Below the pieces are notes generated by a model. It did no database searches. It saw only the letters and a list, made by a program, of their open reading frames with translations, and had not been told where the DNA came from. Below are positions 59,152-64,000 of a stretch of 64,000 nt of DNA, one piece after another. Source of the DNA: Medakamo hakoo. Its lineage: Eukaryota > Chlorophyta > Trebouxiophyceae > Coccomyxaceae. Within the stretch, counting starts at the first letter, position 1; each line of letters starts with the position of its first letter. A program made the translations under genes and the position numbers. The DNA is taken from contig CP089465.1 in NCBI GenBank assembly GCA_026636295.1, forward strand, positions 248,001 to 312,000. Direction: 5' to 3'.

Positions 59152-59271
59152 CGCGAGAGATGGAGGGAGAGAGGCCGCGCCTTTTTTTTTCGCCCCGCGC
59201 TCGTCACAGCAGAGACCGACAGCTCGCGCCCTCTCCTCCATCGGCGCGCCCGCCCGTCCCACGCACCCGAC

Positions 59272-60441
59272 ATGGCGCGCCCGTCCCACGTCCAAGCGAG
59301 CCGGCCCCTAGCCCTGGCCTGCGCCGCGCTGGCGGCGTACCTGCTCGTTTTCGGGCGGGGCGGCGGCGGGCAGTGCACGCATGCGTCCGCCGTCGGCACC
59401 GCGTCTGTCTTGAACAACGCCACGGCGCACGCGCCGCCCGTGCTCGACCCGCCCTCGGTGCCCTCTGGGGGCCATGTGAAGCCACCGTCGCCTCCGGCCC
59501 TGGTGTGGGCCGGCCCCAAAGACGCGGCCGTGTCGCGGCGGGTGGTGTGCGACGCCACGAAAATCAAACACTCGCCCTCTGTCGGCGCCGCACTCACCCC
59601 GCCTCTGAAAGTCGACGACGTGCTCACCCACCTGGTGAAAGCCGCCAAGGCTGCCTCCTCCAGCGTCACGGTCCTGGACGTGGGCGCCAACGCCGGCCAG
59701 ACGGCGGCCACGCTCGCGGCAGCGGGCGCGGACCGGGTCGTCTCGTTTGAGCCGCACCCGCGGACGTGCGCCGCGTTCCTGGAGGCCGCGGCCCGGCTGC
59801 CCAACGCGTCGCGCGTGGACCTGGTGTGCGCGGGCGTCGGCGCGGAGGCGGGCCTGACCGAGTTTGTCGAGGTCGCGGAGTCCACGTCCTTCATGGAACG
59901 CCCCGCCAGTGGCGGCGCCCCCCGGGCCGCGACGGGCCGGACGATGGTCGTGCCCACCGTCACGCTCGCCGCCGCGGCGTCCGCGCTGGGCCTGGGCACG
60001 GGCGGCGTGTCCGTGCTGAAGACGGACACCCAGGGCCGGGAAGCCGGCGTCCTGCTGGGCTACGGCCCGGACCGGCTGGCCGCGACGCCGGCCGTCGTCC
60101 TGGAGTACTCGTTTGGCCTGCTGCGCGCGGCGGGGACGGGCCACGGCGCCCTGCTCCACTTCTTGGCCGACGCCGGGTTCCAGTGCTCGTACCTGGCCAA
60201 GCACGTCATCGGCGGCACGGTGCCCTGGCCGCGGGAGGTGGGGGCCGCGGCCGGCGGGTGCGTGGGCTTCGACGCGTTCGTGTCGGCCGTGAAGGGCGGG
60301 TGGACCAACCTGTGGTGCGAAAACGTGCGCATGACAGGCGGCGGCGGAGGGGGTGGGAGGGGCGGGAGCGGGGGTGGTGGTGGGCGCAAGGCCGGCGCCG
60401 GGAGTGGTGGGGGCGGTGGTGGGCGCCCGCCGCCCGCGTGA
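59272..60441 (+). CDS. FkbM-family SAM-dependent methyltransferase
   Basis: An intronless 389-residue frame. An N-terminal hydrophobic segment (LALACAALAAYLLVFG) suggests a signal-anchor, so the enzyme probably faces the ER/Golgi lumen or outside. The SAM-binding motif I is VTVLDVGANAGQTAATLAAAGADRVVSFEPHPRTCAAF; the FkbM pattern continues with VDLVCAGVGAEAGLTEFVEV, then VSVLKTDTQGREAGVLLGYG (the KTDTQGxE acidic motif) and VVLEYSFGLL, LLHFLADAGFQCSYL, GCVGFDAFVSAV. FkbM enzymes O-methylate polyketides (FK506) or sugar hydroxyls. The C-terminal 45 residues are a Gly/Arg tail. It lies 120 bp after the glycosyltransferase on the same strand and converges with the PKS gene. Confidence 0.88.
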   Translation: MARPSHVQASRPLALACAALAAYLLVFGRGGGGQCTHASAVGTASVLNNATAHAPPVLDPPSVPSGGHVKPPSPPALVWAGPKDAAVSRRVVCDATKIKHSPSVGAALTPPLKVDDVLTHLVKAAKAASSSVTVLDVGANAGQTAATLAAAGADRVVSFEPHPRTCAAFLEAAARLPNASRVDLVCAGVGAEAGLTEFVEVAESTSFMERPASGGAPRAATGRTMVVPTVTLAAAASALGLGTGGVSVLKTDTQGREAGVLLGYGPDRLAATPAVVLEYSFGLLRAAGTGHGALLHFLADAGFQCSYLAKHVIGGTVPWPREVGAAAGGCVGFDAFVSAVKGGWTNLWCENVRMTGGGGGGGRGGSGGGGGRKAGAGSGGGGGGRPPPA

Positions 60442-60597: not shown

Positions 60598-63500
60598 TCA
60601 AAACCCGTCCACTTTCACCGTCCACGCGTCGCCGTCGTAGTGGACGTGCGTGCGGCCCGCGGCCGCCGCGGCTTCAGCCAGGCGCGCCCCGAACTGAGCG
60701 ACCCTGCGGCTGGAGGGCGGGTGGCCCGGCCGCCTCGACGACGGCGGCGGCGCCATGCCGCACAGCGTGACCAGGGCGGGCACGTTGAGGCCGGCGCCCC
60801 GGCCCGGCTTCTGTCCGCTGTCCCACCCGTCGTACACAGCCACGTGCCCGGGCTCGACCGTCAGCGCGGCCGCGACGTCCAGGCCCCGGACGTCGACGGG
60901 CGCCAGGAAGGTCACCTCGCCGACGCCCGCCCGGCCGACGGTGAAGCGGGGCAGGGCGGCCAGGCCCGCTTCGTCCAGGGCCGCCAGGGCGGGCGCGTCG
61001 GGGACCGTGAACCAGGCGCCGTCGGGTGGCAGGACGGGGAGGAGGCCCGGGTCCAGGGCGGGCCGGGCGGATGGACGACGGGCGCGGTGGCGGTGGCGGT
61101 GGTCCCAGTCGCGGCCGGCCGGCCGGGCCGTGTCCGGGTCGGCGCCTGCAGGCAGGTGACCGGTGGCCGGTCCGCCGCCGCCTTCCCCTCCACTCACAGC
61201 AGACGAGCGCCGGTGGTGGCGGTGGCGCCGCCGACGGTGGTGGTGGCGGCGGGCGGTGTCGGGGTCGTCGACCGCCGGGTCCTTGCCCACGCCGCCGCCT
61301 GGTCCGACCTCGACCGCCGGCAGCGCGGCCGCGACGGCCGCGCCCAACTCCGCGACGGACGGGTAGTCAAACGCCAGCGTGGCCGGCAGGTCCAGCCCCG
61401 TGGCAGACGACAGCGTGCGCCGCAAGTCAACGGCGCCGACCGAGTCGACGCCCGCGGCCAATAGGGGTTCGGTGGGCGCGAGCGGGCGGCCGGCCGCGGC
61501 AGACGCCGCGTCCGCTGCCAGGGCCGTCGCCCACGCCAATCTGCCGGCCGCGTCCAGGCCGTGCCAGGGTGGCAGCGACACGGCCGTGCGCGGCGGCGGT
61601 GGGGTGTGCTGGCGGCTGGGGTGGGAGGGCAGGGTGGGCGGCAGCGACGCGGCCGCGGCGAGCGGGCGGGGTGGGCGCGGGGGGCGCGGCGGCCCAGGGC
61701 CGGCCTCCGTGTCCGCCGTGTCCGCCAGGTCGGCGTAAAAGGCCCACCGGTGCCGGCCCCCGCCACCGGACAGTAAAGCCGGAATCTCCAACGCCGCCAC
61801 AGCCAGGGCGGCGGGCGTCTCCACGCCGCCGCCCACCACCCGCCCCAGCGGCGCCAACCCCGCCACCGCGTCCAGGCTGCCCATGCCCGCCCGCGCGAGG
61901 CGGGCGCGCAGGGCCGGGTCCGCCGCCATGCCGCCGCCGCCGCCCCAGGCGCCGTACTGCAAGGCAGTGGAGGGCAGGCCGGCCGCGTGCGTGCGGCCGA
62001 CGAGCGCGTCCAGGGCCGCGTTGGCGGCGGCGTAGGCGGCCTGGCCGGCAGAGCCCAACAGTCCGGCGACGGACGAGAAGGCGGCGGCGGAGGACAGGGG
62101 CAGGCCCGCGGCCGCGCGGGCCAGGGCGGCGGCGGCGACAGCCTTGGGCGCGCCGGTTGTGCGCACGTCGGCCGGCGTCGTGCGGGCGAGGGCGCCGTCC
62201 GCCAGTGCGCCGGCGGCGTGGACGGACGCGGCCAGCCGGTGTGAGGACGCGCAGCGGGCCAGGGCCGACGCGCCGGCCCGGGTGGCCGCGTCCGCCGAGA
62301 CGCAGGTCAGGGCGGTGGCGGGTGCGGCAGCAGCCGCCAGCACAGGCGGCGGCGCCCGCCCCGCCCGCCCAGCCGCGATGAGGTGGGGCGGCCGGGCGAG
62401 GCCGCCGCCGCCCTCCGCCAGGAACGCGAGGACGAGCGCGCCCAGGCCGCCCAGGCCGCCCGTGACGAGGGCGGCGCCGGTGCGGCAGCGGGACGGCGTG
62501 GCGGCGGCTGTGCGGCGCGTCCGGCGCAGCGCGGGTGCAGTCGCCAGGCCGGACGCCGCGACGGCCGCGCCGTGCGGGGTGTCCAGGCCGGGCGGGAGGG
62601 GGGTGGTGGAGGTGGGCGGCCGCGCGCGCGGCCGCGCCCATCCGTCCGCTTCCACCACGCCCACGGCCACGCCCAGTTCCGCGGCGGCGGCGCGGGCCAG
62701 GCCGGTGGCGGCCGCACACGTGACGGCGGTGTGCGTCGCGCCGGCCGGGCGGGCCGGGCCGGCGGCGTCGCAGCAGCCGACGACAGAGGCTGCCAGGCGC
62801 GGCGGCGGCGCGGCCGCTGGCCCGCCGCCCACCACCGCCCGCAGCGCGGCCAAGGCGGACGCCGGGTGGGCGGACGCGGTGGCTGTCAGACCTGGCACGC
62901 GCCAGGAGACGGGGGTGCGGTGGCGCGGTGGGGCGGGTGCGGCGGACACAACCTCCGTCGCCCGGCCTTCCACCGCCCACTCGACCTGGCGACGGGCGGG
63001 GGGTGGGGGCGGTGGCGGTGGCGGTGACGGTGCCACCTCCATGGCCGCAGCCAGCAGCCCGGCCGCCTGGAAGGCGGGAGAGGTGGACGGGCCGCCGCCC
63101 AGCACAGCCGACGCGGCGGAAGCGAGGCCGCCACCGCCCACGCCGCCGTCTTCGGCCGTCGCCCAGGCCCGGCCGCCGCCGCCGCTGTCGCCGCCGTCGC
63201 CGTCGCGCGTCGCCAGCACACACCCGGCGCCGACGGGGACCCGCGGCTCGCCGCTGCCCAAGGCCAGGCACAGGTGGAAGGCCGCGTCGCCCGTGGCGGG
63301 GTGGATGGCGTGGGTGGTGCAGTCGGACGGAGGGGCCAGGGAGGCGAGGGCGAGGGGGCGGGTGGTGGCGGGCAGGGCGCGGAGGATGGGCAGGCGAGGC
63401 GGGCGGGCGGGTGGACGGTCGACGGCCGCACCGACGCCAGCCAGGTCGCCCGTCAGGTGGGTGGTGGCCGCCCCCCTCCCCACGCGGACCCGGCCTGTGA

Positions 63501-64000
63501 CCAGGTCAATGGTCACGTCCACGTCCAGGCCGGAAGCCGCGGGCAAGGCGGCCGGCGCCGCGATGGCCGCGCCCGTGAGCGCGGGGGGCGGGCCGACGGC
63601 CGCGAGCGCGACGGGCGACCAGCCCAGCGCCGCGCCGGCCGCCAGGACGGCTCCAAACAGGGCCGCAGCCGGGATGAGTGCCCGGCCCCGCACCCGGTGC
63701 TGGCGCAACAGGGCCGTGGGCGGGGAGGCGCCGACGCCCGCCCACGCCAGCGTGGCGGTGGACGTGGACGCGCGCGAGGCAGACAGGCCGGGCGGCGGCG
63801 GCGGCGGGGCCGGCCACGCCCGCGCCCGGCGCCAGGGCAGGGACGTTGACGGTGGGACAGAGCCTGTGGCAGGCCCGCCGACCACCAGGGCGTGCGCGTT
63901 GACGCCGGACATGCCGAAGGAGGACGCGCCGGCCGCGGGGCGGGGGGAGGTGTGACCGACCGGCAGCAGCCAGGGAGACGGGCCGTGTCCACGGGGCGCA
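60598..64000 (-). CDS. Modular type-I polyketide synthase, C-terminal part, fused to a NUP98 autoproteolytic-domain-like C terminus; 5'-truncated by window edge
   Basis: One open frame from the window edge (first full codon at 63999) to the stop at 60598-60600, 1133 residues seen. In order: the C-terminal end of a KS domain (SSFGMSGVNAHAL near 63915); a dehydratase with the active-site pattern H-x3-G-x4-P (HRVRGRALIP near 63690); a long region with Gly-rich loops; a ketoreductase with NADPH motif GAALVTGGLGGLG (near 62470) and Ser/Tyr/Asn active-site block FSSVAGLLGSAGQAAYAAAN; an ACP with phosphopantetheine Ser in GVDSVGAVDL (near 61440). Then a His/Arg-rich linker (RRHHHRRRRHRHHRR) leads to a NUP98-like domain: AWFTVPDAPALAALDEAGL, PRFTVGRAGVGEVTFLAPVDVRGLDV, AGLNVPALVTL, GDAWTVKVDGF-stop. 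No thioesterase is seen. Confidence 0.85.
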   Translation of the reverse strand, partial: APRGHGPSPWLLPVGHTSPRPAAGASSFGMSGVNAHALVVGGPATGSVPPSTSLPWRRARAWPAPPPPPPGLSASRASTSTATLAWAGVGASPPTALLRQHRVRGRALIPAAALFGAVLAAGAALGWSPVALAAVGPPPALTGAAIAAPAALPAASGLDVDVTIDLVTGRVRVGRGAATTHLTGDLAGVGAAVDRPPARPPRLPILRALPATTRPLALASLAPPSDCTTHAIHPATGDAAFHLCLALGSGEPRVPVGAGCVLATRDGDGGDSGGGGRAWATAEDGGVGGGGLASAASAVLGGGPSTSPAFQAAGLLAAAMEVAPSPPPPPPPPPARRQVEWAVEGRATEVVSAAPAPPRHRTPVSWRVPGLTATASAHPASALAALRAVVGGGPAAAPPPRLAASVVGCCDAAGPARPAGATHTAVTCAAATGLARAAAAELGVAVGVVEADGWARPRARPPTSTTPLPPGLDTPHGAAVAASGLATAPALRRTRRTAAATPSRCRTGAALVTGGLGGLGALVLAFLAEGGGGLARPPHLIAAGRAGRAPPPVLAAAAAPATALTCVSADAATRAGASALARCASSHRLAASVHAAGALADGALARTTPADVRTTGAPKAVAAAALARAAAGLPLSSAAAFSSVAGLLGSAGQAAYAAANAALDALVGRTHAAGLPSTALQYGAWGGGGGMAADPALRARLARAGMGSLDAVAGLAPLGRVVGGGVETPAALAVAALEIPALLSGGGGRHRWAFYADLADTADTEAGPGPPRPPRPPRPLAAAASLPPTLPSHPSRQHTPPPPRTAVSLPPWHGLDAAGRLAWATALAADAASAAAGRPLAPTEPLLAAGVDSVGAVDLRRTLSSATGLDLPATLAFDYPSVAELGAAVAAALPAVEVGPGGGVGKDPAVDDPDTARRHHHRRRRHRHHRRSSAVSGGEGGGGPATGHLPAGADPDTARPAGRDWDHRHRHRARRPSARPALDPGLLPVLPPDGAWFTVPDAPALAALDEAGLAALPRFTVGRAGVGEVTFLAPVDVRGLDVAAALTVEPGHVAVYDGWDSGQKPGRGAGLNVPALVTLCGMAPPPSSRRPGHPPSSRRVAQFGARLAEAAAAAGRTHVHYDGDAWTVKVDGF

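Follow-up and report, generated by a model that had tools for sequence, protein, structure and literature searches.

A trans-AT polyketide synthase gene of the green alga Medakamo hakoo continues in frame into a NUP98-type autoproteolytic domain

The window analysed here, a stretch of 64,000 nucleotides of Medakamo hakoo DNA (C16:248001-312000, from a genome of 15.64 Mb in 16 contigs), ends inside the gene of a giant type I polyketide synthase (PKS), which is read on the reverse strand. The last part of this PKS reading frame encodes a homologue of the autoproteolytic domain (APD) of the nucleoporin NUP98. From the sequence, we consider it fairly probable that this PKS, a trans-AT enzyme without acyltransferase (AT) domains in its own chain, has at its C-terminus a further, diverged copy of the NUP98 APD, which would bind protein and stand where a thioesterase (TE) is otherwise placed. 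The APD would be made directly in its mature, ligand-binding form, with no protease function, and would most likely bind a partner protein, keeping the last acyl carrier protein (ACP) beside that partner. By the precedent of the family, the partner may be a beta-propeller of the Nup82/Nup88 type or a peptide; by the logic of assembly lines, it may be a second PKS.

The last 138 residues of the PKS match the Pfam family Nucleoporin2 (PF04096) over positions 4–143 of the 148-position profile, with 72.3 bits and an E-value of 6e-20 (cut-off 28.4). This profile search bears out the original prediction, in which the tail was said to follow the Nucleoporin2 domain of NUP98 and was placed correctly to within a few residues. 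Nucleoporin2 is the single Pfam match in the last 240 residues at E-values up to 1; the same scan, the only search that covered reductases, found neither a TE nor a reductase at the C-terminus. When the tail was used as a phmmer query against PDB sequences, the APDs of NUP98, Nup145N and Nup116 ranked first (best 5e0q, 3e-11); 22 of the 23 sequences in the list were nucleoporins, the remaining one being an unrelated weak match (0.16). The FT-G and GLN-PA-VTL motifs of the NUP98 APD family are kept. A chance or low-complexity match was rejected, the Pfam profile and PDB matches being far above noise. Genome-wide, the Nucleoporin2 profile matched the PKS tail and one gene on contig C5, and no third APD was found. 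The PKS is without an FG repeat region of the NUP98 type, having 0 GLFG and 23 FG in 8669 amino acids.

The tail aligns with solved APDs to its final residue, ...WTVKVDGF standing against ...WVFKVNHF of 5e0q; this end had no part in the original prediction. NUP98 is cut at HF-S between Phe and Ser, the aligned Phe being the residue that precedes the cut. Where NUP98 reads VDHF-S, the PKS reads VDGF followed by the stop, and the His and Ser of the cleavage site are absent. Since the frame reads GF and then TGA at the cleavage Phe, the PKS appears to encode the APD in the mature form, which NUP98 reaches only after cleavage, and without residues to cleave; because the HF-S site is lost, no self-cleavage is expected. 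The domain resembles a binding domain that comes already 'mature' and does not look like a protease, and an active autopeptidase is made unlikely by the missing His and Ser and by a chain that stops at Phe. The earlier description of the tail as NUP98 'autoproteolytic-type' thus holds for its ancestry, as a true APD homologue at the position of a release domain, and is not supported for the autoproteolysis itself.

Positions 60598-64000 are the 3' end of one stop-free frame of 8669 codons (C16:334607-308598, reverse strand, no N). As had been predicted, this single frame runs from ketosynthase (KS), dehydratase (DH), ketoreductase (KR) and ACP motifs into the tail, up to the stop at 60598-60600. 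Judged by its domains, the product is a giant trans-AT type I PKS of about 840 kDa before splicing. Pfam, applied to the frame in three pieces (8667 of the 8669 codons), recognised KS, DH, KR, enoylreductase-type and ACP domains and found no AT domain at E-values up to 0.001. Six KS are among the matches listed, DTACSS and HGTGT being present in all six. By its motifs, the frame opens with ACP-KS and closes with KS-DH-KR-ACP, the first (loading) ACP being recognised on the basis of its motif alone. Two AT loci are among the matches listed genome-wide, as expected of chlorophyte trans-AT PKSs from passages of PMC4661987. Four TE loci are among the matches listed of the corresponding genome search, two of them above the cut-off (the end of a PKS on contig C1 and one C5 locus). 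None of the four lies on C16, and the APD therefore occupies the place of a release or docking domain. An apparent GT-AG intron of 87 nucleotides splits the first ACP and keeps the frame (C16:333693-333779, amino acids 277–305 of the PKS frame), so that, relative to the open frame, the mature PKS has probably lost 29 residues or more. Beyond the PKS stop, a convergent frame for an FkbM methyltransferase (59155-60441, forward strand) has its own stop 156 nucleotides away and, as it ends at 60441, leaves little room for further PKS exons.

The second Nucleoporin2 match, on C5, is the canonical NUP98-96 gene of the alga, in which 12 GLFG repeats and an APD are followed by HFSRYGL (at amino acid 1026) and then by Nup96 (E 7.6e-41); the repeats, with 40 FG, lie within 500 residues. 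The PKS tail and this APD are 42% identical (56 of 133 positions), and at 13 positions the tail has the residue of Xenopus where the alga's NUP98 has another, on which grounds a recent copy of the latter was rejected. Relative to Xenopus Nup98 as the one outgroup sequence, and in one automatic alignment of 136 columns, 14 changes are unique to the tail and 13 to the alga's NUP98 (p 0.85), in a test made coarse by the 51 columns that differ in all three sequences. In the same alignment, the tail keeps 32 of the 46 positions common to the alga's NUP98 and Xenopus and equals the alga's NUP98 at 26 of the 90 others (Fisher p 8e-6), a substitution pattern like that of NUP98. These counts suggest that change in the PKS APD has been no more rapid than in the APD of NUP98 proper. 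Because its sequence has been held to the pattern of the NUP98 family, translation of the tail is most likely, and for this the PKS frame is the only evident route.

The APD has no ATG of its own, as the strand holds none between 61884 and 60756, whichever of its three frames is read; it is therefore probably read through from the PKS, and a separate, ATG-started tail gene beside the PKS is made unlikely by the same scan. Codon scores in the windows of the APD, from amino acid 8531 onwards, are best in frame 0 throughout (41.3, 34.4, 25.0, 8.8, 11.5 and 18.5), the PKS core having a mean of 23.3 (sd 9.6) with frame 0 best in 199 of its 200 windows. Per codon, the tail has a synonymous-codon score of 0.75 and the linker between the last ACP and the APD one of 0.61, to be read against a core mean of 0.65 (sd 0.15, 90 windows) and an off-frame core mean of 0.11 with a maximum of 0.60. 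The features of this region are collected in Table 1.

Table 1. Features of the 3' part of the PKS gene, in positions of the window.
Feature	Positions	Strand	Basis
3' part of the PKS frame, last 1133 codons and stop; the rest runs past the window to C16:334607	60598..64000	-	open reading frame
TGA stop directly behind the Phe aligned with the NUP98 cleavage-site Phe (HF-S)	60598..60600	-	alignment
NUP98-type autoproteolytic domain (Nucleoporin2/S59), ending ...WTVKVDGF	60601..61014	-	genome profile search, 74.2 bits; Pfam; phmmer
ATG-free stretch, all three frames of the strand; A of the nearest ATGs at 61884 and 60756	60757..61883	-	sequence scan
In-frame linker between last ACP and APD, amino acids 8440–8527, Gly/His/Arg-rich	61027..61290	-	core-like synonymous bias, poor full codon log-odds
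Candidate 52-nt GT-AG intron, GTGAGT...CTGCAG	61146..61197	-	donor and acceptor patterns
Last acyl carrier protein, GVDS motif	61318..61557	-	motif; limits approximate
Last ketoreductase; Pfam KR at amino acids 8044–8222, TGGLGGLG at amino acid 8049	61942..62478	-	Pfam and motif
Last dehydratase motif HRVRGRALIP, amino acid 7637	63670..63699	-	motif

Just before the APD, positions 61080-61280 of the reverse strand read as a basic, His/Arg-rich linker, RRHHHRRRRHRHHRR; another frame reads Pro-rich, and the true reading is uncertain. A DPDTAR repeat in the linker reached an alignment score of 38, barely better than the maximum of 36 in 500 simple shuffles, and was not used.

Besides the coarseness of the rate comparison, several results weigh against the proposed fusion of PKS and binding module. 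The amino acids of the linker are odd, with runs of His and Arg, and its codon tests are two-sided. The synonymous bias fits frame 0, and nearly equally frame 1, which has a core-like score of 0.59 but a stop at 61196; the full log-odds do not fit frame 0, for which four overlapping windows give values of -2.6, -11.3, 1.5 and 3.7, against 7.4, 15.6, 5.1 and 3.0 in frame 1. Removal of the candidate intron in the linker puts the APD out of frame and ends the product at amino acid 8547. Donor and acceptor patterns yield one other GT-AG pair, of 145 nucleotides, which also breaks the frame, and no pair with a length divisible by three; some of the transcript may be spliced to a minor form that lacks the APD. 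An AlphaFold model computed without an alignment was poor (pLDDT, the predicted local distance difference test, of 42). No relative with this tail was found in viral contigs, where 23 pattern matches left none confirmed, or in prokaryote genomes, where the same was true of 53; neither set is algal.

Who the partner would be is a question within the explanation that we favour, and the probabilities of the two answers considered here overlap with it. One of them involves a second giant PKS, encoded on contig C1 in an open frame of 13,646 codons (C1:117793-158733, reverse strand; first exon from C1:159528). Ten KS are among the matches listed for this frame, the first being split by an intron of 122 nucleotides, and its end is ACP-TE. 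As read from the sequence, the protein starts at the ATG at C1:159528 with MDARALLA... and has an extension of about 160 residues, followed by a KS and without an ACP or ligase; the genome search found no AMP-binding domain on C1. Genome-wide there are at least 22 KS matches, 6 in the C16 frame, 10 in the C1 frame and the others in single-KS frames and exon pieces, all of these counts being lower bounds. Docking to the C1 enzyme is a reading of the APD as natural as that of a tie to a nucleoporin, and it was absent from the original prediction: the C16 PKS, with a loading ACP, six KS and no TE, would hand its chain to the C1 PKS, and the APD would bind the N-terminal extension of the latter. 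We regard this as possible but tentative. The ends of the two proteins are complementary, as C16 starts with ACP-KS and has no TE match in its frame, and C1 starts with a KS, without ACP, ligase or AMP-binding match, and ends in ACP-TE. Furthermore, the APD comes shortly after the last ACP, at the usual position of C-terminal docking domains, and outside these two frames the listed KS matches of the genome are in frames with one KS each. However, no similarity was seen between the C1 extension and the N-terminal peptide of the alga's Nup96, the natural neighbour of an APD (as high a score arises in 473 of 1000 shuffles), and the two PKS genes are on different contigs. The motif basis of the loading ACP on C16 and a Pfam scan that covered the last 1401 amino acids of C1 also limit the comparison. 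It is doubtful that a domain of the nuclear pore came to serve for docking in a eukaryotic assembly line of two proteins, the chain passing through a pre-trimmed NUP98 APD from six KS modules on C16 to ten KS modules and a TE on C1.

About equal in weight is the reading that the APD binds a propeller of the Nup88/Nup82 type and would keep the PKS on the cytoplasmic side of nuclear pores, which we likewise put forward tentatively. A tether of the Nup88 type has family precedent, because the autoproteolytic domain of Chaetomium Nup145N binds the Nup82 propeller, according to passages of PMC5653651, and because a Nup88 can be recognised, if weakly, in the alga's genome (C8:257719; 22.4 bits and E 1.5e-4, or 20.6 bits and E 1.1e-4 in a second scan). 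The unaccelerated change of the PKS APD is also in line with it. This Nup88 match is nevertheless below the Pfam cut-off of 24.4, and no biological reason for a PKS located at the pore is known to us. In another reading, splicing removes the tail, with the intron of 52 nucleotides in use, the main mRNA ending at amino acid 8547 and the APD frame being a leftover or a minor isoform. This is unlikely. The GTGAGT donor, the CTGCAG acceptor and the poor codon log-odds of the linker speak for it, but the three clear introns examined are all longer than the candidate (87, 100 and 122 nucleotides), its acceptor lacks their C-rich tract by eye, and its use would leave a family-constrained APD untranslated and without an ATG of its own. 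We consider it very improbable that the APD comes from a short gene of its own or from an internal transcript, for example as an ACP-APD protein from a Met at 61884 or 61929 or from a non-AUG start; two in-frame ATGs do adjoin the end of the last KR, but both are inside the continuous PKS frame. Hardly credible is an APD that still acts chemically, releasing the polyketide by autoproteolysis or an N-O shift. The position of a release domain and descent from an autopeptidase (by the Pfam description) agree with such a role, which the absent His and Ser of HF-S and the end of the chain at Phe contradict.

As an enzyme, the C16 PKS is of a known kind; what is new is how it ends, in an APD. It resembles the giant trans-AT type I PKSs of chlorophytes treated by Shelest et al. 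2015 in passages of PMC4661987 (Chlamydomonas PKS1, Chlorella variabilis) in being very large and multimodular, with no AT in the chain and a free-standing AT. In PMC7073580, TE is one of the domain abbreviations given in the legend to a figure of the Chlamydomonas PKS, whereas the C16 frame closes with an APD of the NUP98 type; the string 'nucleopor' is absent from the main texts of both papers. With the APDs of NUP98, Nup145N and Nup116 (PF04096, peptidase S59), the C16 domain shares nearly the whole profile, the conserved motifs and the end at the cleavage Phe. It differs from NUP98 in being fused to a PKS instead of FG repeats, in the absence of His and Ser from the cut site, and in that nothing follows the Phe. 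Docking domains of PKSs and non-ribosomal peptide synthetases (NRPSs), as passages of PMC9113145 describe them for a beta-hairpin domain with a short linear motif, have the same position of a binding module, by the last carrier protein at the end of a TE-less subunit. The APD, in contrast, belongs to a different family and its binding is putative, and 'eukaryot' is absent from the main text of that review.

In the literature searched, we found no report of a PKS joined to NUP98 or another nucleoporin, in agreement with the earlier statement that no described PKS of this architecture was known to its author. The M. hakoo genome paper (PMC9871001) calls the nucleoporins of this alga highly conserved in one of its passages, and the word polyketide is absent from its main text. 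If the explanation that we favour is true, the gene represents a PKS architecture without a report in the literature searched and a binding domain of NUP98 that was reused outside the nuclear pore. The tail makes it testable how giant algal PKSs without a TE release their chains or pass them on, and where in the cell these enzymes sit, in a host that is a small, culturable alga with a genome of about 16 Mb.

Directly upstream of the PKS gene, and on the same strand, lies a gene for a kinesin motor (C16:334611-337355, reverse strand). Elsewhere in the genome, one frame of 3903 codons (C10:282022-289800) contains three AMP-binding domains, two of them with identical scores, and is perhaps an NRPS with duplicated modules.

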